The notes below the pieces were generated by a model. It saw only the letters and a program-made list of their open reading frames with translations. It was not told the DNA's origin and made no database searches. 36,325 nucleotides of DNA from Acidimicrobiia bacterium. Lineage in GTDB: Bacteria; Actinomycetota; Acidimicrobiia; IMCC26256; PALSA-610. Positions within the stretch are counted from its first letter, which is position 1; each line of letters starts with the position of its first letter. Location: contig JADGOO010000072.1 of NCBI GenBank assembly GCA_017882905.1, positions 1 through 36,325 on the forward strand, in the 5' to 3' direction. The translations under genes and the position numbers were made by a program. Below are positions 4,351 to 35,098 of this stretch, one piece after another.

Positions 4351-5241
4351 TCAGCTCGACATCGACTTCGGCATCACCATGCCGACCTGCTGCAGGTGCT
4401 GTCCGAGGCAGGCATCGAACTTGTCGGCCACGAGCTGCGGCGTCCAGGGGCCGTCGCGCCACATCCAGGCGATCTGCTTCGGCTGCTGGAACAACGTGTA
4501 CGAGTACTCGGTGCGACCGAGGATCTGTCCGTTCACGTGGGCGGCCTGCTCGGAGGCGAGGAATGCCACGAGCGGCGCGTTGAGCGACGGGTCTTCCTCG
4601 GGCGGAACTTCCTTGCCGCTGCGCTCGTACAGCGACGCGGTCATGCGCGTAGCACCGGCCGGCGCGACCGCGTTGACGGTGATGCCATAGCGACCGAGCT
4701 CCAAGGCCCACACGAACGTCATGCCCATGATCGCAGCCTTGGCGGCGCCGTAGTTCGTCTGGCCGAAGTTGCCGCGCAATCCCGCCGACGACGTGATGTT
4801 CACGATGCGGCCATAGCCCTGATCCTTCATCAGCGCGGCCGCGTGGCGCGTCACGTTGAACGTGCCCTTCTGGTGCACGGCGACGACGGCGTCGTAGTCG
4901 CTCTCGTCCATCTTGAGCAGCGACTTGTCGCGCACGATGCCGGCATTGTTGACCACGATGTCGAGGCGGCCGAACGCGTCGACGGCCGTCTGCACGATCT
5001 CGCGGGCGGCGGCGAAGTCGCTCACCGAGCTGCCGTTCGCGACGGCCCGACCGCCGGCGTTCGTGATCTCGGCCACGACCTGGTCGGCAGGGGTCTCGCC
5101 GGTGGCGCTGCCGTCGAGCGCGGCGCCGACGTCGTTGATCACGACCGCGGCACCTTCGGCGGCGAGGCACAGCGCGAACTCGCGGCCGATGCCGCGACCC
5201 GAACCGGTGACGATCGCGACGCGTCCTTCGAGGAGGCCCAT
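4351..5241 (-). CDS. Short-chain dehydrogenase, (3R)-hydroxyacyl-CoA dehydrogenase type
   Basis: A 296-residue SDR. The cofactor motif TGSGRGIG is at residues 12-19, NNAG at about 98-101, and the catalytic Ser151, Tyr164 and Lys168 are present. The segment INDVGAALDG after the second beta strand, plus GNFGQTNYGAAK and APAGATRMT, closely recall the dehydrogenase part of peroxisomal multifunctional enzyme 2 (17-beta-HSD type 4) rather than ordinary FabG. It also has a C-terminal extension past residue 240. The expected reaction is NAD(P)-dependent oxidation of a (3R)-hydroxyacyl-CoA. It follows the MaoC hydratase gene by 14 bases, so the pair could carry out two consecutive beta-oxidation steps. 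The substrate (fatty acyl, sterol side chain or other) is unknown. Confidence 0.86.
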   Translation of the reverse strand: MGLLEGRVAIVTGSGRGIGREFALCLAAEGAAVVINDVGAALDGSATGETPADQVVAEITNAGGRAVANGSSVSDFAAAREIVQTAVDAFGRLDIVVNNAGIVRDKSLLKMDESDYDAVVAVHQKGTFNVTRHAAALMKDQGYGRIVNITSSAGLRGNFGQTNYGAAKAAIMGMTFVWALELGRYGITVNAVAPAGATRMTASLYERSGKEVPPEEDPSLNAPLVAFLASEQAAHVNGQILGRTEYSYTLFQQPKQIAWMWRDGPWTPQLVADKFDACLGQHLQQVGMVMPKSMSS

Positions 5242-5255
5242 CGGTGGCGCGACGC

Positions 5256-5654
5256 TCAGGCGACGACGCAGGTCGCGGCGCCGCGCACGGCCTCGCTGCC
5301 CTTGTCGCTCGTGACCACGAGGTCGACGTCGGCCAGCGTCTCGCCGCCTTCCTCGCGCACCGCGCTGACGACCGCCTTGGCCGTGAGCACATCTCCCGGC
5401 CAGACCTGCTTCGAGAAGCGCACCTGGAACCGGCGGATGCCCTCGGCTCCGAACCAGTCCTTCAGCAGCCGACCGGCGAGCCCCATGGTGAGCATGCCGT
5501 GGCCGAACACCGACGGGTTGCCCACCTGCGTGGCGATCGTGTCGTCGTGGTGCATCGGGTTGAAGTCGCCAGAGGCGCCCGCGTACCTCACGAACATCGT
5601 GCGGGTGAGCGCCGGGAACTCCATGCTGCGCTCCTCACCGACCGAAACCGTCAC
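5256..5654 (-). CDS. MaoC-like (R)-specific enoyl-CoA hydratase
   Basis: A 132-residue single hot-dog-fold protein. The hydratase-2 motif YAGASGDFNPMHHD is at residues 24-37, with catalytic Asp30 and His35; GHGMLTMGLAGRL follows as in (R)-hydratases. The family hydrates trans-2-enoyl-CoA to (3R)-hydroxyacyl-CoA, the substrate of the dehydrogenase encoded just downstream. The GTG start has GGAGGT six bases upstream. It is the first gene of the minus-strand operon facing the TetR gene, and its upstream region holds two TGAC-N6-GTCA inverted repeats. Many actinobacterial MaoC proteins of this size work with a second FAS1-like partner subunit; none is seen here. Confidence 0.86.
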   Translation of the reverse strand: MTVSVGEERSMEFPALTRTMFVRYAGASGDFNPMHHDDTIATQVGNPSVFGHGMLTMGLAGRLLKDWFGAEGIRRFQVRFSKQVWPGDVLTAKAVVSAVREEGGETLADVDLVVTSDKGSEAVRGAATCVVA

Positions 5655-5684: not shown

Positions 5685-5700
5685 CTGACAGGAACGTCAG
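5685..5700. promoter_or_regulatory. Candidate TetR operator A (CTGAC-N6-GTCAG)
   Basis: Perfect 5-bp inverted repeat CTGAC/GTCAG around six bases, 31 bp upstream of the MaoC start. It shares TGAC-N6-GTCA and the right half GTCAGG with the sites at 5754 and 11475. Operator function for the neighbouring TetR protein is inferred. Confidence 0.6.
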
Positions 5701-5752
5701 GGATCGTAACGCAGTGCCCCACCGCCGCGCGAGTGCGGCACGCGCCGCAAAC

Positions 5753-5782
5753 ATGACGCGCCAGTCAGGTTCGGCCTAGCGT
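5753..5782 (+). promoter_or_regulatory. Candidate promoter of the TetR gene
   Basis: ATGACG (5753-5758) as -35, 18 bases, then TAGCGT (5777-5782) as -10. The hexamer ends six bases before the GTG start, suggesting a leaderless transcript. Operator B overlaps the -35, as expected for self-repression. Confidence 0.5.
5754..5767. promoter_or_regulatory. Candidate TetR operator B (TGAC-N6-GTCA)
   Basis: Inverted repeat TGAC/GTCA with a 6-base spacer, followed by GG. It is the second copy of this architecture in the 134-bp MaoC-TetR intergenic region and lies 21 bp before the TetR start. Confidence 0.6.
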
Positions 5783-5788
5783 GGACCC

Positions 5789-6448
5789 GTGCCGCCGAGG
5801 AACACCCCCAGCACGCGGCGGCGCGCCACGCGTCAGGCCCCCGAGCCGGCCACGGCCGGGCGCGAGCTGCGGGCCCGCGGACAGCGCACACAGCGACGCC
5901 TGCTCGACGCCGCGATCGACGTGTTCGCCGAACGTGGCTACCACGCAGCTCGCGTCGACGACATCGTGAAGGCCGCCGCCACGTCGCACGGCACCTTCTA
6001 CCTCTACTTCGCGAACAAAGAAGAGCTCTTCACGGCGCTGGCCGCCGAAGTCGCCGAGCAGATGCGCAGCCTCGCGGGTTCGTTGCCCACGGTGCCGCCG
6101 GGCCCCGAAGGTCTGGCCGTGCTGCGCCTCTGGCTCGAGCAGTTCACCGACCTCTACACGCGCTACGCGCCCGTCGTGCGGGCCTGGACAGAAGCCGAGA
6201 TCGCCGGCGACGGCGTGGGCCGCATCGGCGAAGAGCTGCTCGGCGGATTCTCCGCAACGCTCGGCGAACGCGTCGCGCAGGCCGCACCCACGCAGCTCAA
6301 CGCCGCTGTCGCCGGAGCGGCGCTGCTCGCGATGATCGAGCGCCTCTCGTACTACGTGCTCACCGACCAGATGAAGCTCCGGCGCGACGACGTGATCGAC
6401 ACCCTCGCACGCGTCACCCATGCCGCCCTGTACGGAACGGCCTCGTAG
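5789..6448 (+). CDS. TetR family transcriptional regulator
   Basis: A 219-residue regulator. The first 27 residues are a basic, Arg/Pro-rich extension. The TetR DNA-binding domain follows: RRLLDAAIDVFAERGYHAARVDDIVKAAATSHGTFYLYFANKEEL is the expected helix-turn-helix with its GTFYLYF signature (residues about 36-80). The C-terminal ligand domain is helical and ends with a hydrophobic segment near the dimer interface. The GTG start follows TAGCGT by six bases, so the mRNA may be leaderless. It is divergent from the hydratase-dehydrogenase operon and convergent with the livF end. The two TGAC-N6-GTCA repeats upstream, and a related palindrome before the transporter operon, suggest it represses itself, the oxidation genes and the importer. 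An acyl-CoA ligand is plausible but unproven. Confidence 0.9.
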   Translation: MPPRNTPSTRRRATRQAPEPATAGRELRARGQRTQRRLLDAAIDVFAERGYHAARVDDIVKAAATSHGTFYLYFANKEELFTALAAEVAEQMRSLAGSLPTVPPGPEGLAVLRLWLEQFTDLYTRYAPVVRAWTEAEIAGDGVGRIGEELLGGFSATLGERVAQAAPTQLNAAVAGAALLAMIERLSYYVLTDQMKLRRDDVIDTLARVTHAALYGTAS

Positions 6449-6458
6449 CGACCGGTTG

Positions 6459-7184
6459 CTATTGGTTGGTGAGCATGCGTTGCACGGCGGCGCGCATCTG
6501 CAGGGCGTCGCCCCGCTCGCTGATCTCGCCTTGCGCCAGGAGCAGCGCGTCGTCGGCAATTCCGAGCGCGTGGTCGACGTGCTGTTCGATGATGAGCAAC
6601 GTGGTCCCGGCGTCGCGGATCGTCGCGAGCGTGGCGTAGACCTCGTCGACGATGATCGGTGCGAGGCCGAGCGAGAGCTCGTCGGCGATGAGCAACCGCG
6701 GCTCGTCGACCATCACCCGCGACAGCGAGAGCATGCGCTGCTCGCCGCCCGAGAGCGTGCCCGCCAGCTGCCGGCGCCGTTCACCGAGCCGGGGAAACAG
6801 CTCATAGGCACGCGACACACGGCGCGCCACGTCGGCCTTGTCGCGCCCACGACCGAGCGCGAGGTGCAGGTTCTCCTCCACGCTGAGCGATGCGAAGACC
6901 GACCGGCCCTCCGGCGCGTGCACGATGCCGCGCCGGGCGTACACGTACGCCGGCTTACCGGCGAGCTCCTCGCCGGCGAAGCGCACCGATCCCTTCGTGG
7001 GCACGACCAGCCCTGAGCACACCCGGGCGATCGTGGTCTTCCCGGCGCCGTTCGCGCCGAGGAGCGTGAGCACCCGGCCCGCTTCCACGGCGAACGACAC
7101 GTCGAAGATGGCGTGGAACGGCCCGTAGCCGGCATCGACGTGCTCGAGCTCGAGCAACGGGGGCGGCGCAGGCGTGATGGTCAC
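6459..7184 (-). CDS. livF: Branched-chain amino acid-type ABC transporter ATPase (LivF-like)
   Basis: A 241-residue ABC ATPase. Walker A GANGAGKTT is at residues 43-51. The segment ARRGIVHAPEGRSVFASLSVEENL is the LivF hallmark (the usual form is VPEGR). The signature LSGGEQRMLSLSR, Walker B LLIADELSLGLAP and switch His (IIEQHVDHAL) are complete. The GTG start overlaps the livG stop (GTGA), so it is translationally coupled as the last gene of the operon. It should energise the fused permease together with LivG. The substrate may be an amino acid, a short amide/urea-like compound or a carboxylic acid; the sequence does not decide. Confidence 0.93.
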   Translation of the reverse strand: MTITPAPPPLLELEHVDAGYGPFHAIFDVSFAVEAGRVLTLLGANGAGKTTIARVCSGLVVPTKGSVRFAGEELAGKPAYVYARRGIVHAPEGRSVFASLSVEENLHLALGRGRDKADVARRVSRAYELFPRLGERRRQLAGTLSGGEQRMLSLSRVMVDEPRLLIADELSLGLAPIIVDEVYATLATIRDAGTTLLIIEQHVDHALGIADDALLLAQGEISERGDALQMRAAVQRMLTNQ

Positions 7185-7939
7185 ACCACATCTCCGATGT
7201 AGGCCTTGCGGACCGCGGCGTCGGCGAAGACGTCGTTGGTGCTCCCGGACGCGATGAGCCGACCGAAGTCGAGGACGAACACCCGCGTCACGAGCGCGCG
7301 CACCATCGGCACGTCGTGCTCCACGAGCAGGATCGCGCAGTGCCGCTCCCCGTTCACGTGTTGCAGGATCTGCGAGAGCTCGGCCGTCTCGTTGTGATCG
7401 AGACCCGACGAAGGCTCGTCGAGCAACAACAGCTTCGGGTTCGTCATGAGCGCCCGGCCGATCTCGACCACTCGGCCGCGGCCCAAGCTCAACGCCTCGA
7501 TCGGCCGGTCGGCATCGGCCGTCAGGCTCAACAGCTCGAGCGTCTCTTCGACGCGCGCGAGCTCGTCGGGCTTGGGGCGACCGAGACCGAGCAGATCCTT
7601 CCAGAGCCGGCCGTCGCCACGCCGGGCGCGCTCGGCGACGAACAGGTGCTCGCGCGGTGTCATCCCGGCGAAGAGCTCGATGCGCTGGAACGTGCGCCCG
7701 ATGCCGAGCCGCGCCCGCCGGTGCGTCGGGACGCGCGTGAGATCCTTGCCGTCGAAGCTGATGGTGCCGCCGTCGGGACGCAGCATCCCGAGCAGGCAGT
7801 TGAAGAACGTGGTCTTGCCCGCACCGTTCGGTCCGATCAGGCCGACCATCTCGCCGGCGTCCACATCGAGGGCCACGCCATCGAGTGCGGTGATCCCGGC
7901 GAACGACTTGGTGACGCCACGCGCGTCGAGGAGGGTCAT
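7181..7939 (-). CDS. livG: Branched-chain amino acid-type ABC transporter ATPase (LivG-like)
   Basis: A 252-residue ABC ATPase. Walker A GPNGAGKTT, the LivG-type segment GIGRTFQRIELFAGMTPREHL, Walker B LLLLDEPSSGLDHNE and switch His (LVEHDVPMV) are intact. The ABC signature reads LSLGRGRVVEIGRAL instead of LSGGQ; LivG proteins commonly deviate here, so it need not mean loss of activity. The ATG overlaps the permease stop (ATGA) and its own stop overlaps the livF start, giving tight coupling through the operon. A C-terminal VFADAAVRKAYIGD matches the usual LivG ending. Confidence 0.93.
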   Translation of the reverse strand: MTLLDARGVTKSFAGITALDGVALDVDAGEMVGLIGPNGAGKTTFFNCLLGMLRPDGGTISFDGKDLTRVPTHRRARLGIGRTFQRIELFAGMTPREHLFVAERARRGDGRLWKDLLGLGRPKPDELARVEETLELLSLTADADRPIEALSLGRGRVVEIGRALMTNPKLLLLDEPSSGLDHNETAELSQILQHVNGERHCAILLVEHDVPMVRALVTRVFVLDFGRLIASGSTNDVFADAAVRKAYIGDVV

Positions 7940-9957
7940 GCGGGTGCTGCTCCCGACGTCGCCGTTTCGGGCGGCTCGCCGGAGCTCCTGCGCCGGTCGA
8001 TGAGCGCTTGGATCTTCTGCATCGGCTTGCGCTTGTTCGCCTCGAGGATGCCTTCCGGGTGCTTGGCGTAGGTGACCGCACCCAACCCGAAGAAGATGTA
8101 CTGCACGGCGGCCGGCAGTGTGCCCACATGACCGAACGGCTGGATGTGGTTGATCAACCACGGCAACCAGACCGGGAGCACACGCTTGGCGAACAAGATG
8201 AAGCCGAACGCGGCCTGCAGCGCGCCTTCGATCGTGCGTGGACCGAGCGTCACCACGATCACGACCCAGAACAAGCCCACGAACGTGGCCCAGTTGGTCG
8301 GCGTGTAGTGACCTTCGTAGCTCGTGAGGAGCCCGCCACCGAGTCCCGCGATCGCCGCCGACAGCCCGAACGTGACGATGCGGGCGCGAGTCGCGCTGAT
8401 GCCGATCGACGCGGCGGCGACCTGGCTGCCGCGGACGGCGTCGAGGAAGCGTCCGGTCGTGCCGCCGCGCACGAGCACGACACCGGCCGAGACCAAGACG
8501 AGCACGACGAGGCACAGTGCGAGGAACGACTTGTTGTTCGCGAAGTCGACCGAGCCCAGCTGTGGTCGGGGCTCGGCTTCCGGGAAGATGCCGCCCGTGA
8601 TCCACCCGAACTTCAAGAACACGTTCTCGAACGCGAGCGCGAACGCAAACGTGAACAGCGTGAGGAAGATGCCGCCGAGCCGCAGCGCCGGGATCGACAC
8701 GACCATGCCCACGACGCCGGCGACCAGCGCGCCGATGAGGATCGTGAGGATCACCGACATGCCCTGTTGGGTGGCGAGCTGCGCGCTCACGGCGCCACCG
8801 ATGCCGGCGAAGGTGGCCTGCGCGAACGAGACCTGACCCGCAAGGCCGGTTGCCACCACGATCGAACAGAAGATGATCGCGTAGATGGCGATGCGGATGG
8901 CATCGTCGAGCACGCTGTCGTTGCCGTGGAAGAACACGTAGTACAGGTAGATCGCGCCGATGACGCACCAGAAGATGCGCGTTCCCCACGTGAGCTCGGA
9001 GCTGCGCGTTCCGGCCACTGGCGCCGGCGGCGGCGGATCCACGTTCGCGAGAGGGTCGGTCGTGCCGCGCCGATGTCGCAGTCGCGGATCGAGCGCGAGC
9101 ACGAGGAACAGCGCAATGAACGGCAGGCCGGGCCGGATGTTGCTCGCCACGACGCTGTTCGTGGGCAGGAAGCGGTTCAGCCACTCCTGGAGGACACCGA
9201 GCCCGATCCCTGCGGCGAGCGCGAGCGGCACGCTCGTGAGCGACGCGAGCACCGCCGCAACGATCGCGGCGGTGACCAAGGTCGTGTAGTACACGTCGAC
9301 GACCTGGTTGCCGGTGATCTGCGGCAACAGCACGCCGGCCAGGCCTGCGACGAAGCTCGTGAGCACCCACGAGAGCATGCTCACACGGTCGCTGTTCACG
9401 CCGTTGAGCTCGGCCATGCGTGAGCTCTCAACGACGGCGCGCATTCGGAGCCCGACCGCCGTGTAGCGGAAGAGCACGATGACCGCGAGCGCCACGATTG
9501 CCGTGGTGACAATGATGGCGAGCTGGTCACGGTTGAGCACGGCGGGCCCGATGTTGTACACGGTGTCGCCGTGCGGCACGATGCCCTGTGAGCTGATCGC
9601 CAAGGTCTGATCGAACTTCAGTTGCACGATGCCGGGAATCGCGACGAGCAGGCCGAGCGCGACCACCAGCCGACTCATCTCGGGCGCGCTGCGAAGGAAT
9701 CGGAACAGCAGTCGGTCGAGGATCACGCCGATGAGCGGCGCGAGGAGCACGACCGACACGATGAACGCCGGGATGATCGCGACATCGTGGGACGTGTGAA
9801 GCGTGTAGTACAGCGCGCCCGATGCATACGCCTGAACGCCGAACGCGATGTTGAACACGCCCGATGTCTTGTACGCGAGCACCAGACCGATCGCGAGCAG
9901 CGCGTAGACCGCGCCGTACGCGACACCATCGGTGAGTCCGCCGAAGAAGTTGTCCAC
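7936..9957 (-). CDS. Fused LivH-LivM ABC transporter permease
   Basis: A 673-residue permease joining both membrane subunits of a branched-chain amino acid-type importer. Residues 1-295 are LivH-like: GLTDGVAYGAVYALLAIGLVL at the start, FNIAFGVQAY, and RAVVESSRMAELNGVNSDRV, the coupling-helix region. A hydrophilic Pro-rich linker (about 300-325) follows. Residues 330-640 are LivM-like: ATGLAGQVSFAQATFAGIGG, GGIFLTLFTFAFALAFENV, and AVRGSQVAAASIGISATRARI as the second coupling region. The C-terminal tail is basic. It starts with GTG, 36 bases after the binding-protein stop, with no strong ribosome site. Fusion of the two permeases occurs in actinobacterial members of the family. Confidence 0.92.
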   Translation of the reverse strand: MDNFFGGLTDGVAYGAVYALLAIGLVLAYKTSGVFNIAFGVQAYASGALYYTLHTSHDVAIIPAFIVSVVLLAPLIGVILDRLLFRFLRSAPEMSRLVVALGLLVAIPGIVQLKFDQTLAISSQGIVPHGDTVYNIGPAVLNRDQLAIIVTTAIVALAVIVLFRYTAVGLRMRAVVESSRMAELNGVNSDRVSMLSWVLTSFVAGLAGVLLPQITGNQVVDVYYTTLVTAAIVAAVLASLTSVPLALAAGIGLGVLQEWLNRFLPTNSVVASNIRPGLPFIALFLVLALDPRLRHRRGTTDPLANVDPPPPAPVAGTRSSELTWGTRIFWCVIGAIYLYYVFFHGNDSVLDDAIRIAIYAIIFCSIVVATGLAGQVSFAQATFAGIGGAVSAQLATQQGMSVILTILIGALVAGVVGMVVSIPALRLGGIFLTLFTFAFALAFENVFLKFGWITGGIFPEAEPRPQLGSVDFANNKSFLALCLVVLVLVSAGVVLVRGGTTGRFLDAVRGSQVAAASIGISATRARIVTFGLSAAIAGLGGGLLTSYEGHYTPTNWATFVGLFWVVIVVTLGPRTIEGALQAAFGFILFAKRVLPVWLPWLINHIQPFGHVGTLPAAVQYIFFGLGAVTYAKHPEGILEANKRKPMQKIQALIDRRRSSGEPPETATSGAAPA

Positions 9958-9993: not shown

Positions 9994-11382
9994 CTACCCC
10001 TTTCCGCCGGGAGCGAATGACATGTGTTGCGGTTCCGTCGGTATCGGAGCCTTTGGGCTGGGATCGAAGCAGATCCACGGCTTGCCGGGCTCGGTGAACA
10101 ACGGGACGAACTTGCCTGCTTTGATCTGCGTCACCGTCGCGCACTCGTACTTGCCGCGCATGGCGAGGTTGCTCTGGGGGTCGTTGTGCTGCTTCGTCCA
10201 ATCGATCGGCACGATCAGGCCGTCGGCGCTGTACGCCGTCTGCGAGTTGAGGTAGGCGATCACCTTCTGCTTCGTGAACTCGGGGCCTGCACCCTTCAGG
10301 CCGTCGACGAACATCTTGGCCATGATCCAGCCCGACTCGGTGAGCTCGACGGGGTGAGTGGTGATCGCCTTGACCGCGGTGAGGTACTCCTGCGTCGCCG
10401 GCGATTGCGGCGTGTCTTCCCACGCCGAGTTCTGCGGCTCGACGAAGTCGTTCTCGAACAGCGCCGCCGTGGTCGGGTCGCCGAGCGAGTCATGGTCGTA
10501 CGCGTTCGGGAGGTTCTGCGTGGCGTTGAGACCTTGCTGCTTCATCTCCTTGGCCAGCTTGGCAACTTCGTTCGTGTCCATGCACGTGGTGACGAACTGC
10601 ACGCCGGCCGCCTTCATCTTCGCGACGTCGGCCGCAAGATCACCCGAGAACGGGATCGTGTCGTCGAAGAAGGCCACCTTCACGTTGGGCGTGAAGAGCT
10701 GGTAGCCCTTCTTCGTTCCTGCAGCACAGATCTTCGACGAAGCGGAGACGCCGTAGGCAAGGATCCCGACCTTCGTGTAGTGCTCCTTCGTGACGAGCCA
10801 GGGAAGGAAATGGCCGCCGCAGTTGAAGCAGAGGGCGCCGAGGCTTCCGAAGATGTTCGTGTGGGCCACCTGCGGGGTGCTCGCCATCTCCGGGTTGATG
10901 TTCCAGATGAAGGTGGGCTGGCCGGCCTTGGCGAGCGCGTCGGCCCCCGTGAACTGCAGGGTGGCGACGAAGGTCGCGAACGCGTTGTCATCGGAGAGGC
11001 TCGCGGTCACCTGCTGCGCGTTCTGCGTACCGATGATGTCGTCGCGCTCCTTGGCGATCACGAGCTTGCGGCCGTAGATGCCGCCGTGGTCGTTGATGAG
11101 CTTGAAGTAGGCCTTGACCCCGTCGGTGTACTGCACGTACTTGCCGCCGAGCGGGTTGGTCTTCGACGTGATGACGGCGACCCGGATCTCGCGCTTGGCA
11201 TCGTCGACGCCGGCCTGGTTGCTCGGTACGAACTTCGTGAGATTGGCCGCGCTCGCAGTGGTCTGGGGTGCGCCGCCCTGGCTCTGCGTGGTCGTGGAAC
11301 CCGACTGCGACTTGGAGTTGCCGCACGCCGCGGCGGCTAAGGCAAGCGCAACACTCGTCGCCAGGAGTCTCCCTGCACGCAT
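9994..11382 (-). CDS. ABC transporter substrate-binding lipoprotein (branched-chain amino acid type)
   Basis: A 462-residue periplasmic-binding-type protein, first gene of the importer operon. The signal peptide is MRAGRLLATSVALALAAAAC with the lipidated Cys at 20, followed by a Ser/Thr/Gln-rich linker to about residue 50. The mature part has the type I binding-protein fold: VITSKTNPLGGKYVQYTDGVKAYFKLIN, then INDHGGIYGRKLVIAKERDD, and a second lobe around GILAYGVSASS. The ATG at 11382 is preferred over longer options because it opens the signal peptide and follows a G-rich Shine-Dalgarno-like run. Two nearby Cys (ALCFNCGGH) and later Cys may form disulphides. A 32-bp palindrome lies 86 bp upstream. 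Ligand unknown. Confidence 0.9.
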   Translation of the reverse strand: MRAGRLLATSVALALAAAACGNSKSQSGSTTTQSQGGAPQTTASAANLTKFVPSNQAGVDDAKREIRVAVITSKTNPLGGKYVQYTDGVKAYFKLINDHGGIYGRKLVIAKERDDIIGTQNAQQVTASLSDDNAFATFVATLQFTGADALAKAGQPTFIWNINPEMASTPQVAHTNIFGSLGALCFNCGGHFLPWLVTKEHYTKVGILAYGVSASSKICAAGTKKGYQLFTPNVKVAFFDDTIPFSGDLAADVAKMKAAGVQFVTTCMDTNEVAKLAKEMKQQGLNATQNLPNAYDHDSLGDPTTAALFENDFVEPQNSAWEDTPQSPATQEYLTAVKAITTHPVELTESGWIMAKMFVDGLKGAGPEFTKQKVIAYLNSQTAYSADGLIVPIDWTKQHNDPQSNLAMRGKYECATVTQIKAGKFVPLFTEPGKPWICFDPSPKAPIPTEPQHMSFAPGGKG

Positions 11383-11467: not shown

Positions 11468-11499
11468 CGCGAAACCTAACGCTAACGTCAGGTTTCGCG
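11468..11499. promoter_or_regulatory. 32-bp palindrome with TetR-operator-like core
   Basis: Arms CGCGAAACCTAACG (11468-11481) and CGTCAGGTTTCGCG (11486-11499) match at 13 of 14 positions around a CTAA spacer. The centre reads TAAC-N6-GTCA (11477-11490), one base off the TGAC-N6-GTCA repeats at 5686 and 5754, and is followed by the same GGT. It sits between the binding-protein gene (86 bp away) and the PIG-L gene (63 bp away) and could control both. Confidence 0.65.
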
Positions 11500-11561
11500 G
11501 GGGACACTACCGATCGCCGCTCGCCCCGTCCACGCGGCGGACGTCGAGGAGGCACCACACC

Positions 11562-12383
11562 ATGCCCTACACACTCGTAGCCGTGCACGCGCACCCCGAC
11601 GACGAAGCGATCGCGACGAGCGGCACGATGGCATTGGCCAAAGCGCACGGGCATCGTGTCGTGCTCGTCGTGGCGACGCGCGGCGAGCTCGGCGAAGTAC
11701 CCGGCGATCTGCAGCCCGGCGAGTCACTCGCCGAACGTCGCACCGCCGAGACGCTCGCCGCCGCCGAAATCATCGGCATCGACCGAGTCGAGTTCCTCGG
11801 CTACAGGGACTCCGGCATGGAGGGTGATCCGCGCAACGCCGACCCCGACACCTTCGCCTCGGCCGACGTCGCCGAAGCCGCCGAACGCCTCGCGGCGATC
11901 CTGCGCGACGAACAGGTCGACGTGCTGCTCTCCTACGACGAGCTCGGGAACTACGGGCACCCTGACCACGTCCAGGTGCACCACGTGGCCAATCGTGCGG
12001 GTGAGCTCGCCGGCGTGCCGCTCGTGTACGAGGCAACGATGAACCGCGACCACATCTGGGAGCTCGTCACCTCGCGACCCGACGACATGCCCGCCGACAC
12101 CACCCCCGACCGGCCGGAGACGATCGAGGAGTTCAACCTCGGGATGCGCGACTGGACGATCACGCACCGCGTCGACGTCCGGGAGCACATCGCCACCAAG
12201 CGCGCGGCGATGGTGGCCCACGCCAGCCAGATCGCCGAGCAGTCGTTCTTCTTGCAGATGCCGCCCGACGTGTTCGCGGAGTCGTTCGGCTACGAGTGGT
12301 TCATCCGGGTCGGCGATGCACGGCCCGCCGGCGCGCCGTTCGCCGACGATCTCTTCGCTCCGCTCCGGTCCGCCGTACGCTGA
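11562..12383 (+). CDS. PIG-L/LmbE family zinc deacetylase (MshB/Mca-like)
   Basis: A 273-residue PIG-L family enzyme. The zinc motif AHAHPDDEA is at residues 9-16 (His11, Asp13, Asp14 and the acid/base area), with the second zinc site NYGHPDHVQVHH at 130-141. Length and motifs resemble MshB and Mca, which deacetylate or hydrolyse amide bonds on GlcN-Ins conjugates in mycothiol metabolism, but homologues act on varied N-acetyl sugars and conjugates. GAGGAGG stands ten bases before the ATG. It is divergent from the ABC importer, across the 32-bp palindrome, and six bases upstream of an exported hydrolase gene. A mycothiol-conjugate amidase role is possible, not established. Confidence 0.86.
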   Translation: MPYTLVAVHAHPDDEAIATSGTMALAKAHGHRVVLVVATRGELGEVPGDLQPGESLAERRTAETLAAAEIIGIDRVEFLGYRDSGMEGDPRNADPDTFASADVAEAAERLAAILRDEQVDVLLSYDELGNYGHPDHVQVHHVANRAGELAGVPLVYEATMNRDHIWELVTSRPDDMPADTTPDRPETIEEFNLGMRDWTITHRVDVREHIATKRAAMVAHASQIAEQSFFLQMPPDVFAESFGYEWFIRVGDARPAGAPFADDLFAPLRSAVR

Positions 12384-16277: not shown

Positions 16278-16751
16278 ATGCTCCGACGCCGAACCCGTTC
16301 CGCCACCCGACGCACGGCCGCCTTGCTGACCGTAGGATTGCTCGCCGCCGCTGCGCTGGCTGCCTGCTCGAGCTCGGGCACCAATGGTGACGCAACGACC
16401 GGCGCCGGATCGCCACACTCCACGGTGAGCAACCCGGGCCCGAACCTCACCGGCAGCACCGATCCCGGTCCGCACACCACGAGTGGCGGACCGCAGACGA
16501 TCAGCGGTGTGCTCGCAGTGGCCGACGCCCGGTGCGCCCGCCTCACACCTGCTTCGGGCGCCCGCACCTACCAGCTGGCCCTGCCGGCCGGCCTCGCCGT
16601 ATCGGCCGAAGGACTCGCCGACCACGGACGGCTCGTGGCTCGCCCGCGCGACCAGGTGTTCGTCGCGGGCCACACGACAGCAACCGCAGGAACGTGCGGG
16701 ACCGTCGTGTTCCAAGTGAGCCAGATCGTGAGCGTGCAGCCCGCGAGCTGA
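16278..16751 (+). CDS. Small Thr/Gly-rich lipoprotein of unknown function
   Basis: A 157-residue exported protein. A very basic N-terminus (MLRRRTRSATRRT) and hydrophobic core end at ALAAC (Cys30), a lipobox-like site. A low-complexity Ser/Thr/Gly/Pro segment reaches about residue 75. The remaining 80 residues form a small domain with two cysteines (DARCARL and AGTCGTVVF) that could pair, and ends in VFQVSQIVSVQP. I recognise no family. AGGTG precedes the ATG closely. Only 21 bases separate it from the divergent channel-like gene, so the two may be co-regulated. Confidence 0.68.
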   Translation: MLRRRTRSATRRTAALLTVGLLAAAALAACSSSGTNGDATTGAGSPHSTVSNPGPNLTGSTDPGPHTTSGGPQTISGVLAVADARCARLTPASGARTYQLALPAGLAVSAEGLADHGRLVARPRDQVFVAGHTTATAGTCGTVVFQVSQIVSVQPAS

Positions 16752-16759
16752 CGGGCGCG

Positions 16760-18436
16760 TCAGCGACTCAGTGGCTTGTAGTGGATCCGGTGCGGCTGGT
16801 CGGCATCGGTGCCGAGGCGCTTGTGGCGATCGATCTCGTAGTCGGAGAAGTTGCCCTCGAACCACCGCACCTCGCTGTCGCCCTCGAACGCGAGCACATG
16901 CGTGGCGATGCGATCGAGGAACCAACGATCGTGGGAGATCACCACAGCACAGCCCGGGAAGTCGATCAACGCGTCTTCGAGTGACCGCAACGTGTCGACG
17001 TCGAGGTCGTTGGTTGGTTCGTCGAGCAGCAGGACGTTGCCGCCCATCAGCAATGCCTTGGCGAGATGGAGCCGGTTGCGCTCACCACCCGAGAGATCGC
17101 CGACGGCCTTGCCCTGATCCGTGCCCTTGAAGTTGAAGCTCGCGCAGTACGCGCGCCCGTGCACGTCGCGACCGCCGACCTTCAGGTGGTCGACACCACC
17201 CGTGATCTCTTCGTAGACCGTCTTGGAGGCATCGAGCGACTCACGCGATTGATCGACGTACGCGAGCTGCACCGTGGTGCCGACCGTGAGGCGACCGGCG
17301 TCGGGCTGCTCGTCGCCGACCAGCATGCGAAAGAGCGTGGTCTTACCGGCACCGTTGGGGCCGATCACGCCGACGATCCCACCCGGCGGCAGTGTGAACG
17401 ACAGATCGTTGAACAGCAACGTGTCGCCGAACGCCTTCGTGAGCCCTTCGGCTTCCACGACGAGATCGCCCAGCCGGGGCCCGGGCGGGATCGTGATCTG
17501 CAGCTTCTCGGCGCGCCGCTCGGCCGACTCCGACTCGGCCACGAGTCGTTCGAACGCGGTGATGCGCGCCTTGCCCTTCGCCTGGCGCGCCTTGGGCGCC
17601 ATGCGGATCCACTCGAGCTCTCGTTCCAAAGTGCGCCGGCGGGCCTCGTCGCCCTTCTCCTCCTGCGCGAGGCGCTGCTCCTTCTGTTCGAGCCAGCTCG
17701 TGTAGTTGCCCTCCCACGGGATTCCTTGGCCGCGATCGAGCTCGAGGATCCAGCCCGCGACGTTGTCGAGGAAGTAACGATCGTGGGTGACCGCAATGAC
17801 GCAACCCGGGTAGTCGTGCAGGTAGCGCTCGAGCCACGCGACCGACTCGGCATCGAGGTGGTTGGTGGGCTCGTCGAGCATCAACAGGTCGGGGCGCGAG
17901 AGCAGCAGGCGACACAGCGCGACACGGCGACGCTCACCACCCGAGAGCTTGGTGACGTCGGCGTCGTCGGGCGGGAGGCGCAACGCGTCCATGGCGATGT
18001 CGAGCGTGCGATCGAGCTCCCAGCCACTGACCGTGTCAATGCGGTCCTGGAGATCGGACTGCTCCGCGAGCAGCTTGTCGAAGTCGGCGTCGGGCTCCCC
18101 CATCGCGTTGCAGACCTCGTCGAAGCGATCGAGGAGCGCCTTGATCTCGCCGACGCCCTCCATCACGTTGTCGCGCACGTTCTTGTCGGGATCGAGGAGC
18201 GGTTCCTGCGGCAGGTAGCCCACGCGGAAGCCGGGAGTGACGCGGCACTCACCTTGGTACCCGTCGTCCTCGCCGGCGATGATCCGCAGCAAGGTGCTCT
18301 TGCCCGCACCGTTCGCACCCAGCACGCCGATCTTGGCGTCGGGGTACATCGAAAGGCTGATGTTGCGCAGCACTTCCTTGTCGGGCGGGTGCACCCGGCG
18401 CAGGTTCCGCATCGTGAGGATGAACTGATGAGCCAT
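16760..18436 (-). CDS. ettA: Energy-dependent translational throttle protein EttA (ABC-F)
   Basis: A 558-residue ABC-F protein, close to the E. coli EttA length (555). It opens MAHQFILTMRNLRRVHPPDKEVL, typical of EttA. Domain 1 has Walker A GANGAGKST, signature LSGGERRRVAL and Walker B LLMLDEPTNHLD. Between the domains lies the charged P-site tRNA interaction motif, including EEKGDEARRRTLEREL and IRMAPKARQAKGKARI. Domain 2 has GPNGAGKTT, LSGGERNRLHLAK and VLLLDEPTNDLD. There is no membrane domain. The family binds the ribosomal E site and couples initiation to ATP/ADP level. TAAGGT ends eight bases before the ATG, and no Shine-Dalgarno is seen. It is divergent from the DUF885 gene. Confidence 0.96.
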   Translation of the reverse strand: MAHQFILTMRNLRRVHPPDKEVLRNISLSMYPDAKIGVLGANGAGKSTLLRIIAGEDDGYQGECRVTPGFRVGYLPQEPLLDPDKNVRDNVMEGVGEIKALLDRFDEVCNAMGEPDADFDKLLAEQSDLQDRIDTVSGWELDRTLDIAMDALRLPPDDADVTKLSGGERRRVALCRLLLSRPDLLMLDEPTNHLDAESVAWLERYLHDYPGCVIAVTHDRYFLDNVAGWILELDRGQGIPWEGNYTSWLEQKEQRLAQEEKGDEARRRTLERELEWIRMAPKARQAKGKARITAFERLVAESESAERRAEKLQITIPPGPRLGDLVVEAEGLTKAFGDTLLFNDLSFTLPPGGIVGVIGPNGAGKTTLFRMLVGDEQPDAGRLTVGTTVQLAYVDQSRESLDASKTVYEEITGGVDHLKVGGRDVHGRAYCASFNFKGTDQGKAVGDLSGGERNRLHLAKALLMGGNVLLLDEPTNDLDVDTLRSLEDALIDFPGCAVVISHDRWFLDRIATHVLAFEGDSEVRWFEGNFSDYEIDRHKRLGTDADQPHRIHYKPLSR

Positions 18437-18444
18437 GTAGGGCG

Positions 18445-18450
18445 ACCTTA
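18445..18450 (-). promoter_or_regulatory. Candidate -10 TAAGGT for ettA
   Basis: Minus-strand TAAGGT ends eight bases before the ettA ATG, in a 38-bp divergent region. Consistent with leaderless mRNA; inferred. Confidence 0.42.
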
Positions 18451-18460
18451 GTGGTGCGAC

Positions 18461-18466
18461 TAGCGT
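18461..18466 (+). promoter_or_regulatory. Candidate -10 TAGCGT for the DUF885 gene
   Basis: TAGCGT ends eight bases before the ATG at 18475, with no ribosome site between. The identical hexamer precedes the TetR and nrdR genes. Confidence 0.45.
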
Positions 18467-18474
18467 CGCCTTCC

Positions 18475-20193
18475 ATGGCCGCGTCGCCTTCTCCCGTCTA
18501 CGCGATCGCCGACGGCTACATCGACGAGCTCGCCGCACTCGACCCGCTCGAGGCCACCGACATGGGCATCGCGGGCTACGACGACCGGCTGACGGATCTG
18601 TCACCCGACGGCCACGCCGCCGTCGACGCGCTCCGAGCCCGCACGATCGCCGACCTCGACGCGGCGCCGATCGAGAACGACCGCGACGAGGTCGCGCGGG
18701 CGTTCATGCGGGAACGACTCGGGGTTGCACGCGAGCGCTTCGCGGCGGGCGACTACATGCGCGACGTACGCGTGCTCGGCTCTGCGATGGGCGCCACCCG
18801 CTCCTGCTTCGATCTCATGGCCTTCGACGACGATGCGCAATGGGCCACCGCGGCGCGCCGCATGCGGGCCGTGCCCGACGCGCTCGACGGGTGGCGCCGA
18901 TCGCTCTCGGCCGGGATGGCGCAGCACCTCGTGGCAGCCCGTCGCCAAGCCCTCGCCTGCGCCCGCCAGGCGGCCACCTGGAGCGGCGAGGGCGCTCGCC
19001 CCTTCTTCCACGGCCTCGTCGACCGCTACGAGCAGCGGACCGACGCGTCAGCCGCGCTGCTCGGCGAGCTCCGCGCGGCCGCCGACGCGGCCACCGAAGG
19101 CTTCGCGGTCACGGCACGTTTCCTCACCGACGTGTACGCGCCGGCTGCGAGCGAGCGCGATGCGGTCGGTGCCGAGCGCTACGAGCGCGAAGCGCGGGCG
19201 TACCTCGGCGCCACCATCGACTTGAACGAGACCTACGACTGGGGCTGGGCGGAGCTCGGCCGCATCGAAGCGCGCATCGGCGAGGTGTGCGAGGCGATCC
19301 TCCCGGGCAGCGACTTCGCGGGCGCTGTCGCGCATCTGGAAGCCGACCCGGCGTACGTCGTCGACGGCGCCGACGCGTTCCTCGCTTGGAATCAAGACCT
19401 GATCGACCGCACGATCGAGGAGCTGGGCCGCACCCATTTCGACATCGCGCCACCGCTGCGGCGATGCCAGGCAATGATCTGCCCGCCGGGCGGCGCCGCG
19501 GCCATGTACTACACGCAGCCGAGCGAAGACTTCTCGCGCCCGGGCCGCACCTGGTATCCCACGCTCGGCAAGTCGCGCTTCCCACTCTGGGGCGAAGTCT
19601 CGATCTGCTACCACGAAGCGGTTCCCGGCCACCATCTGCAGATCGGCCGCACGGTGCTGCTCGCCGACACGCTCTCGCGATTCCAGCGCCTCGCCGGATT
19701 CGTGTCGGGCCACGGCGAAGGCTGGGCGCTCTACGCCGAACGGCTCATGGAGGAGCTCGGCTACCTGGAAGACCCCGCGTTCGAGCTCGGCATGCTGGCC
19801 GCGCAGGCCATGCGCGCGGTGCGCGTCATCGTCGACATCGGCATGCACCTCGAGCTCACGATCCCGGCGGCTTCCACGTACGAACCGGGCGCGCGTTGGA
19901 CTGCGGAGGTCGCGCTCCCGTTCGTGCTCGAGCGATCGCGGTTCCCCGAGGCGTTCATGCGCAGCGAGGTCGACCGTTACCTCGGCCTACCGGGCCAGGC
20001 GATCAGCTACAAGGTCGGCGAACGAGTGTGGCTCGACTGCCGGGCCGACGCGCAACGCCGTCACGGCGATCAGTTCGACCTCAAGGCGTGGCACTCGTTC
20101 GCGCTCGATCTCGGGGGCTTGGGCCTCGAGACGCTGCGCACGCAGCTCGCTCGCTTCTATCGCCTTAGGCTCCACCGCGATGACCGAACCTGA
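18475..20193 (+). CDS. DUF885 family zinc metallopeptidase-like protein
   Basis: A 572-residue protein of the DUF885 group. The zinc-site motif HEAVPGHH (residues 380-387, HExxxGH form) is followed by a downstream Glu in GHGEGWALYAERLMEELG. PPGGAAAMYYTQPSEDFSRPG and LGLPGQAISYKVG are further family landmarks. The fold is mostly helical and resembles M32-like or related carboxypeptidase families; substrates are largely unknown. No signal peptide is seen, so it is cytoplasmic. The ATG at 18475 is chosen because TAGCGT stands eight bases before it; an in-frame GTG eight codons upstream is possible. It is the first gene of a plus-strand operon, and its end overlaps the next gene by 14 bases. Confidence 0.88.
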   Translation: MAASPSPVYAIADGYIDELAALDPLEATDMGIAGYDDRLTDLSPDGHAAVDALRARTIADLDAAPIENDRDEVARAFMRERLGVARERFAAGDYMRDVRVLGSAMGATRSCFDLMAFDDDAQWATAARRMRAVPDALDGWRRSLSAGMAQHLVAARRQALACARQAATWSGEGARPFFHGLVDRYEQRTDASAALLGELRAAADAATEGFAVTARFLTDVYAPAASERDAVGAERYEREARAYLGATIDLNETYDWGWAELGRIEARIGEVCEAILPGSDFAGAVAHLEADPAYVVDGADAFLAWNQDLIDRTIEELGRTHFDIAPPLRRCQAMICPPGGAAAMYYTQPSEDFSRPGRTWYPTLGKSRFPLWGEVSICYHEAVPGHHLQIGRTVLLADTLSRFQRLAGFVSGHGEGWALYAERLMEELGYLEDPAFELGMLAAQAMRAVRVIVDIGMHLELTIPAASTYEPGARWTAEVALPFVLERSRFPEAFMRSEVDRYLGLPGQAISYKVGERVWLDCRADAQRRHGDQFDLKAWHSFALDLGGLGLETLRTQLARFYRLRLHRDDRT

Positions 20194-26905: not shown

Positions 26906-26935
26906 GGTGCGCCGTCCCTTCAGGGGCGGCGCACC
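26906..26935. terminator. Rho-independent-like terminator hairpin
   Basis: Left arm GGTGCGCCGTCCC (26906-26918), loop TTCA, right arm GGGGCGGCGCACC (26923-26935): 13 pairs with one G-T wobble, followed by CTTTC. It lies between the 44-codon ORF and the convergent dimethylformamidase-like gene and could serve both directions, though only a short T-run exists on the plus strand. Confidence 0.75.
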
Positions 26936-32314: not shown

Positions 32315-35098
32315 CTAGGAACAGCCGCTCGTGCTGCCGCAGCTCGGGCAGGCGTGGCAGGAGCCGGCGCGCTGCATGATGTCGCCGCAGTTGTGGCAGA
32401 GCACGACTTCGGCTTCACGGCTCGACGTGTACGTGGGCGTCGGGCGGGCCGGCGGCTGGTCGAGCACCGCCGACGGCGCACGATCTTCCATCGGCAGGTC
32501 GAGGCTCGCGCTGCTCGGCGTGGTTGCCTCGTCGACACCGGGCAGGGTGGGCTGCATCCGCTCGCCGATCGTGAGCACGCCGAGCTCGGCACGGTGGGCG
32601 GGCTCGAGGTACTCGACCGCGAGGCGGCGGAAGATGTAGTCGACGAGCGACGACGCGAAGCGGATGTCGGGGTCGTCGGTCATGCCTGCGGGCTCGAAGC
32701 GCATGTTGGTGAACATGCGCACGAACGCTTCGAGCGGCACGCCGTACTGCAGACCGTGGCTCACCGAGATGGCGAACGCGTCCATGATGCCGGCGAGCGT
32801 GGAGCCCTGCTTGGCCACCTGCAAGAACAGCTCGCCGGGTCGGCCGTCTTCGTACTCGCCCACCGTCACGTAGCCGTGGCAGTCGGCGACACGGAACGAG
32901 AACGTCTTGGCCGTGCGGGTGCGCGGCAGCTTCTGGCGGACGGGTTCCTGCACGATCACGTGCTCGACGATGCGCTCCACGATCGGTGCGCCGTCGGAGT
33001 CGGCCGCGCCGTCCTTCTTCTGGGTGGAGAGGGGCTGGGCCACCTTGCAGTTGTCGCGATAGATGGCGACCGCCTTCAGGCCGAGTCGCCACGACTCGAG
33101 GTGCAGCTGCTCGACGTCTTCGATGGTCGCGTCTTCGGGCATGTTGACCGTCTTGGAGATGGCACCCGAGAGGAACTTCTGCACGGCCGACATCATGAGC
33201 ACGTGGCCCATGTAGTGGATCGCGTTGTCCCCCATCGAGCAGGCGAACACCGGCAAGTGCTCGGCGCGCAGTGCCGGCGCACCGATGATCGTCTTGTGCT
33301 CGTCGATGTAGCCGACGATCGCGTCGACCTCAGCCGGCGAGTAGCCGAGGTTCTTCAGTGCACGCGGGATCGTCTGGTTGACGATGAACATCGTGCCGCC
33401 GCCGACGAGCTTCTTCGCTTTGGTGAGCGCGAGGTCGGGCTCGATGCCGGTGGTGTCGCAGTCCATCATCAAGCCGATGGTGCCGGTGGGCGCGAGCACG
33501 GTGGCCTGCGAGTTGCGCACGCCGTAGACCGCACCGAGCTCCACCGCGTCGTCCCAGGCCTGGCGCGCGGCAACGAGCAGGTCGTCGGGCACGGCCCGCT
33601 CGTCGATCGCACCGGCCGCCGTGCGGTGCTGGTCCAGCACGCGCAGCATCGGCTCGCGGTTGTGATCGAAGCCCGCGAACGGGCCCATGCGTGCCGCCGT
33701 GCGCGCACTCGTCGCGTAGGCGTGGCCGGTCATGAGCGACGTGAGCGCGGCCGCCCACGCGCGGCCCTGCTCGCTGTCGTAGGGCATGCCCTGGGCCATG
33801 AGCAGCGCACCGAGGTTGGCGTAGCCGAGGCCGAGCTGGCGGAACTGACGGCTCGTCTCGCCGATGCTCTCCGTGGGGTAGTCGGCGTTGCCGACGAGGA
33901 TCTCCTGCGCCGTGAACATCACCTCGATGGTGTGCTTGTACGCGTCGACGTCGAAGCGGTCTTCGTCGTCGAGGTACTTGAGCAGGTTGATGCTGGCGAG
34001 GTTGCACGCCGAGTTGTCGAGGTGCATGTACTCGCTGCAGGGGTTGCTGGCGTTGATGCGGCCGGTGTTCGACGCCGTGTGCCAGTGGTTGATCGTGGTG
34101 TCGAACTGCAGGCCCGGGTCGGCGCACTCCCAGCTGGCGGTGGCCATCTGACGCCACAGCTCGCGGGCGCGCACGGTCCTCACGGGATCGCCGGTCTTGA
34201 CGGCCCGGAAGGTCCATTCACGGTCTTCTGCGACGGCCTGCATGAACTCGTCGGTGACGCGCACCGAGTTGTTGGCGTTCTGGTACTGGATCGAGTGGCT
34301 GTCGATGCCGTCGAGGTCCATGTCGAAGCCGGCTTCGCGCAGCGCGCGCGCCTTGCGCTCCTCACGCGCCTTGCATCAGATGAAGTCCTCGACGTCGGGG
34401 TGGTCGACGTCGAGGATCACCATCTTGGCTGCGCGGCGCGTCTTGCCACCCGACTTGATCGTGCCCGCGCTGGCGTCCGCGCCGCGCATGAAGCTGACCG
34501 GACCGCTGGCGGTGCCGCCGCCCTTCAGGTGCTCCTTCGACGAGCGGATGCGGCTGAGGTTCACGCCGGCACCGGAGCCGCCCTTGAAGATCACGCCCTC
34601 TTCGCGGTACCAGTTGAGGATCGAGTCCATCGTGTCGTCGACGGCGAGGATGAAGCACGCGCTCGCCTGTTGCGGCACGCCCTTGACGCCGATGTTGAAC
34701 CACACCGGCGAGTTGAAGGCCGCGCGCTGGCTCACGAGGATGTACTTGAGCTCGTCACGGAAGGCTTCCGCTTCGTCGTCGTCGACGAAGTAGCCGTCGC
34801 GCCGGCCCCACGCAACGATTGTGTCGGCGACCCGGTCGATCACCTGGCGCAGCGAGCGCTCGCGCTCGGCCGTTCCGAGCGTGCCCCGGAAGTACTTCTG
34901 GGCGACGATGTTCGTGGCGTTCTGCGACCACGACCTCGGGAACTCGACCTCGGGCTGGAAGAAGGCGTCACCGCCATCTTTGAAGTTCGGGATCCGCGAA
35001 TCGCGGATCTCCCACTCCACCAGCTCGTAGGGATGGCGGTCGGCGGTGGTGAAGCGGCGCCGGATGCCGATGCCGAGCTGCTGGGGCGTCATCGCCAT
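32315..35098 (-). CDS. nrdJ: B12-dependent ribonucleotide reductase NrdJ, interrupted by an in-frame TGA
   Basis: 928 codons of one reading frame encode a class II ribonucleotide reductase, broken only by TGA at codon 241 (34376-34378). Before it: NSPVWFNIGV, QQASACFILAVDD (Cys148) and FKGGSGAGVNLSRIRSS. After it: NNSVRVTDEFM, the active-site NPCSEY (Asn352, Cys354, Glu356), NLASINLLKYL and a C-terminal Cys-rich tail (LCHNCGDIMQRAGSCHACPSCG) that delivers electrons. The enzyme reduces ribonucleotides with adenosylcobalamin, without oxygen. The ATG at 35098 follows a G-rich ribosome site. Every landmark lies in the same frame, so this is a nonsense change and not a frameshift. It may be a sequencing error, a recent mutation or readthrough. 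As written, the first product would be 240 residues and lack the active site. Confidence 0.9.
34376..34378 (-). other. In-frame TGA inside nrdJ (codon 241)
   Basis: The reading goes DVEDFI-TGA-CKAREERKARALREAGFD, with the family-like sequence continuing in frame. A single G-to-A change from TGG (Trp) would produce it. No readthrough signal is obvious. Confidence 0.9.

Follow-up and report, generated by a model that had tools for sequence, protein, structure and literature searches.

A palindrome between a Liv-type importer operon and a PIG-L gene as a probable conserved TetR-type operator

A near-perfect 32-bp inverted repeat, CGCGAAACCTAACG-CTAA-CGTCAGGTTTCGCG, lies at 11468-11499 of the window, which is the whole 36,325-nucleotide stretch of DNA analysed. 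It occupies part of a 179-bp gap between the divergent start codons of a Liv-type binding-protein gene (ATG 11382, minus strand) and a PIG-L gene (ATG 11562, plus strand). The question is whether this repeat is a regulatory site, how much of it would work and which protein would bind it. The reading preferred here, with a probability of about 0.8 on sequence grounds, is a conserved TetR-type operator with a working part of 16–20 bp in the interior of the palindrome and the TetR-family product of 5789-6448 as its most likely binder.

The arms are 14 bp long, the spacer has 4 bases and the single mismatch is A11478 against C11489, exactly the geometry that the preliminary description had given. 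Palindromes with arms of 14 bp, at most one mismatch and a spacer of 0–8 were found 14 times in 60 simulated first-order Markov windows, or about 0.23 per window, none of them with a spacer of 4. The real window contains two palindromes within these limits, the present one and that at 26906-26935 (spacer 2), the sole other of this quality. Because about 0.23 are expected per window and a second is present, the palindrome taken alone is mildly unusual and is weak evidence, and does not prove a function. Its meaning comes from the comparison of relatives.

The surrounding genes and candidate sites are listed in the table. The TetR gene is convergent with the importer operon and lies at its far end. 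Gene order recurs in relatives (tblastn): PIG-L is divergent from SBP-LivHM-LivG-LivF (SBP, the binding-protein gene), which is convergent with TetR, which is divergent from HadB-like-SDR (SDR, the short-chain dehydrogenase gene). In two genomes, G016 and G031 (loci L146 and L147), PIG-L has the TetR gene instead of the binding-protein gene as its neighbour, at a distance of about 60–75 bp and in the same orientation. This adjacency links PIG-L and TetR independently of the palindrome. Elsewhere in the window, an in-frame TGA at 34376-34378 (minus strand) separates two ORFs that are presumably consecutive parts of a B12-type ribonucleotide reductase; it is possibly a sequence error or the mark of a broken gene.

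Table. Genes, candidate operators and predicted promoter elements of the importer/PIG-L cluster (positions in the window)
Feature	Position	Strand	Remarks
Short-chain dehydrogenase gene, downstream of HadB-like gene	4351..5241	-	adh_short E 2.6e-46
HadB/MaoC-like dehydratase gene, divergent from TetR	5256..5654	-	HadB 74.5 bits, below cut-off 203
Second candidate operator, TetR / HadB-like divergent gap	5685..5700	.	CTGACAGGAACGTCAG, exact match
Candidate operator upstream of TetR gene	5751..5770	.	ACATGACGCGCCAGTCAGGT
TetR-family regulator gene	5789..6448	+	TetR_N E 1.6e-17; EthR_C 26.6 bits against cut-off 27
LivF ATPase gene	6459..7181	-	ABC_tran E 2.6e-25; start inferred
LivG ATPase gene	7181..7930	-	ABC_tran E 3.2e-32; start inferred; extent fits relatives
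Fused LivH-LivM permease gene	7936..9957	-	two BPD_transp_2 stretches
Liv-type (Peripla_BP_6) substrate-binding protein gene	9994..11382	-	E 1.8e-29
Operator core (candidate)	11474..11493	.	ACCTAACG-CTAA-CGTCAGGT; core in 24/24 divergent PIG-L/SBP intergenic regions
Putative -10 box TAGCGT, binding-protein promoter, inside operator	11479..11484	-	predicted
Putative weak -35 box GTGTCC	11502..11507	-	17 bp from -10; 3/6 match; predicted
PIG-L / LmbE deacetylase gene	11562..12383	+	nearest curated family MshB, 164.9 bits, below cut-off 224.35

The divergent pair of PIG-L and Liv-binding-protein genes was found in 24 of the 58 genomes of the order examined, on the loci taken from them. A core of the CTGAC-N6-GTCAG type lies between the two genes in every one of these pairs. 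Such a conserved, dyad-symmetric inverted repeat in a promoter region is characteristic of TetR-family operators. The placement for joint control of both genes, proposed in the preliminary description, agrees with this retention of the core. In shuffle tests, 22 of the 24 cores were reached or exceeded in at most 8 of 400 Markov shuffles. The remaining two are those of G002 (9/400, or 3/200 in another run) and G053 (score 19, 0/200), the latter seen in one of two scans and outside the range of the other. The conserved part is (C)TGAC-N6-GTCA(G). Positions ±4, ±5 and right-side 4 to 7 are invariant among 21 aligned sequences, a conservation inflated by the choice of sites on the core; the outer arms played no part in that choice. 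The window site carries A for G at -6, the less common state (6/21 aligned sequences). Two close paralogues of the binding-protein gene in the source genome (C239, C132) have no neighbouring PIG-L match and no site. Upstream of the C132 copy (67% identical), at about 1129-1150 of locus L057, a different palindrome-like stretch runs from GTGTACCG to CGGTACAC, so these paralogues seem to be under other regulators than the binding-protein gene of the window.

On the importer strand, a TA...T box occupies the centre of the operator in 13 of the 24 gaps, and in G002, G008, G011 and G013 a TTGTGG or TTGTCA box stands 17 bp upstream of it. A sigma-70 consensus scan of the gap found no promoter. The candidate operator would overlie the putative -10 box and spacer of the binding-protein promoter. 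In the other 11 gaps the core persists without a TA...T box, which indicates retention of the operator irrespective of the putative promoter.

The same motif recurs upstream of the TetR_N regulator gene of the cluster, at the two sites given in the table. TGAC-N6-GTC is present in 27 of 31 upstream regions of the syntenic TetR, counted where TGAC and GTC are in register; from those of G006, G030, G031 and G054, which were dropped, the core is absent as tested. The level of at most 8 in 400 shuffles was reached by 19 of the 31 regions with relaxed start codons; a scan under strict projected starts, which hid some sites, gave 15 of 31. None of 15 regions upstream of paralogous TetR genes (42–49% identical) reached the 10-of-200 shuffle level. 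The TetR genes adjoining an SDR match in G024:C138 and G017:C196 gave 12 and 89 of 200 shuffles.

The exact core, CTGACRNNNNYGTCAG, occurs 29 times in the source genome and once in the reversed control, the palindrome of the window, with its A at -6, not being among the 29. A search for ACCTNACG-N4-CGTNAGGT with at most two mismatches gave 27 sites, the reversed control giving 3; several of the 27 lie inside ORFs and are not counted as operators, and the exact-core count is used instead. Twenty of the 29 exact sites are outside picked ORFs, mostly beside a start, and nine are flagged inside an ORF by a crude picker based on G+C at the third position; some of the enclosing ORFs are probably over-extended. 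One flagged exact core, at 16748-16763, lies near the 3' end of a long ORF, 16760-18604 (minus strand), presumably ABC-F-like, and may be a chance occurrence. Among 59 genomes, the 44 with a TetR match better than 1e-40 contain 2–29 exact cores and the 15 without such a match contain 0–1 (Fisher p 2.5e-14, treating related genomes as independent and counting a match to the syntenic TetR or to its paralogue).

Genes beside the sites, in the part of them scanned, encode CoA-transferase family III, acyl-CoA dehydrogenases, thiolase, a ChsH2-type OB-fold protein, enoyl-CoA hydratase, short-chain dehydrogenases, P450, amidohydrolases, hydantoinase B and MFS transporters. An FTR1-type gene adjoins a two-mismatch site, not an exact core. 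From these neighbours the regulon looks like an acyl-CoA or lipid catabolic one. At 2537-2569 of locus L189 (G000:C187), between divergent P450 and fumarase-like genes, two cores are spaced 17 bp start to start, a possible cooperative site.

The full length of the palindrome invites two other explanations. The preliminary description envisaged nested half-site pairs, outer (GCGAAACC/GGTTTCGC) and inner (TAAC/GTCA), bound by two dimers or by two regulators. QacR binds a 28-bp palindrome as a tetramer. The palindrome here is of comparable length to such a two-dimer operator, and its arms pair over 14 bp; binding of longer palindromes by two dimers is described for members of the TetR family (PMC4482099). 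The outer half, however, is not conserved here. Information at ±13 to ±16 is 0.02–0.40 bits among the 21 aligned sequences, and mean pairing at ±11 to ±16 over the 24 PIG-L/SBP sites is 1.83 of 6, where re-paired controls give 1.67 (P 0.27). Pairing did not differ significantly from re-pairing in 27 TetR sites (P 0.095) or in 9 sites of the own genome (P 0.10). All six outer pairs are formed in the window site alone, no other site reaches four, and the full form GCGAAACC..GGTTTCGC occurs once in the 4.36-Mb genome. Conservation of the outer arms, on which the preliminary description had let the nested arrangement depend, is thus lacking in the alignment, and nested binding is rejected as improbable. 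The sole extension past the core is a weak A/T preference near ±10/±11 (A at -10 in 16 of 19 sequences upstream of TetR), a point that could be read in favour of nested sites; by it the predicted operator is taken as about 20–22 bp, not 32. The long outer arms, including their outer CGCG, most likely arose by chance at this locus. An RNA hairpin that serves one of the two transcripts as a leader or attenuator element is a still more remote alternative. The repeat folds on both strands (z -3.4 and -3.9), but folding is expected of any DNA palindrome. The outer pairs of the stem are not kept in relatives, where they stand at chance level, and the palindrome encloses the putative importer start, which would leave that transcript without the full stem. 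The scan found no terminator-like site, and Rfam yielded a single match, to a miRNA model and below threshold (22.3 bits against 74). RNA hairpin, terminator and Rfam element were all rejected.

With the inner core as the probable operator, the choice of protein is the remaining point. The recognition-helix stretch SHGTFYLYF is common to the TetR orthologue and its paralogue. Because this stretch is identical in both, the clustered TetR, the paralogue or both may bind the core; two regulators might share one core, rather than occupy nested sites. A leading part for the paralogous TetR (G000:C80), or for another regulator with the same helix, is conceivable though unlikely; the clustered TetR would then have a lesser part at the core. 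Such an arrangement would agree with the identical helix and with at least five genomes (G018, G025, G034, G035, G053) that have 4–12 core sites and in which the paralogous TetR was the only one of the two found. A TetR gene was detected in none of 15 loci around sites of the two-mismatch search, so most sites would have to be read in trans. Against a leading part for the paralogue, the core stands in 27 of 31 syntenic TetR upstream regions, whereas none of the 15 paralogues cleared the shuffle test, and in G016 and G031 it is the syntenic TetR gene that PIG-L adjoins. The clustered TetR is retained as the most likely binder.

Among known systems, divergent TetR regulation in actinobacteria and streptomycetes, the TetR/tetO paradigm with its '200 bp rule', is the closest in kind (PMC3511530). 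An inverted repeat, a gap below 200 bp, a regulator gene nearby and a site also upstream of that gene are features in common; unlike the operators treated there, the regulator gene here is not the divergent neighbour and is found at the opposite end of the importer operon, a distance of about 5 kb. The mycobacterial MftR is a TetR-type repressor released by long-chain acyl-CoA, with the operator T-N2-GGCA-N5-TGCC-N2-A (PMC8728441). The layout here is similar, approximately A-N2-TGAC-N6-GTCA-N2-T, and so is the probable regulatory logic, but half-sites and target genes are other than those described for MftR. KstR and KstR2 control lipid-degradation regulons as TetR-type repressors (PMC1995591); a repressor of this type, a large regulon and candidate targets of lipid-catabolic type are shared features. 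The window TetR passes the general TetR_N cut-off but reaches none of the curated thresholds for named TetR subfamilies, with 39.1 bits against the MftR family (cut-off 224.9) and 27.4 bits against the KstR family (cut-off 280). Its core presumably differs from the KstR motif. A search of open-licence papers found none on this motif or cluster.

The mechanism proposed joins observed sequence, conservation, co-occurrence and synteny to predicted binding, repression, promoter positions and ligand. In the working part, the half-sites TGAC and GTCA would occupy ±4 to ±7, and weaker contacts would extend to about ±10. This core would be bound by a TetR-family dimer acting as repressor, most likely the product of 5789-6448. 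Since the operator overlies the putative -10 box and spacer, the bound repressor would block RNA polymerase at the binding-protein promoter. The same operator could also hold down PIG-L across the divergent gap. Further targets of the repressor would be the two sites in the gap between its own gene and the HadB-like/SDR operon, with other sites probable beside acyl-CoA catabolic genes. A ligand would release the repressor; this might be the imported compound itself or an acyl-CoA derived from that compound.

The case shows why a long palindrome seen in one sequence needs to be cut back by comparison before nested binding is put forward. The operator is ordinary in kind and is a useful entry to an undescribed regulon. 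For the importer/PIG-L cluster, which is conserved but uncharacterised, it offers an operator that can be tested and a candidate repressor. Its motif also predicts a wider catabolic regulon in this order, for which the genomes considered here are mainly drafts. There is about an even chance that this CTGAC-N6-GTCAG regulon is order-wide and is governed by one or two paralogous TetRs with the same helix, as a KstR-like switch for a lipid- or steroid-type substrate. If so, it would tie a Liv-type importer and an MshB-like deacetylase to CoA-transferases, acyl-CoA dehydrogenases and thiolase, and would also take in ChsH2-like, P450 and amidohydrolase genes, in uncultured actinobacteria.
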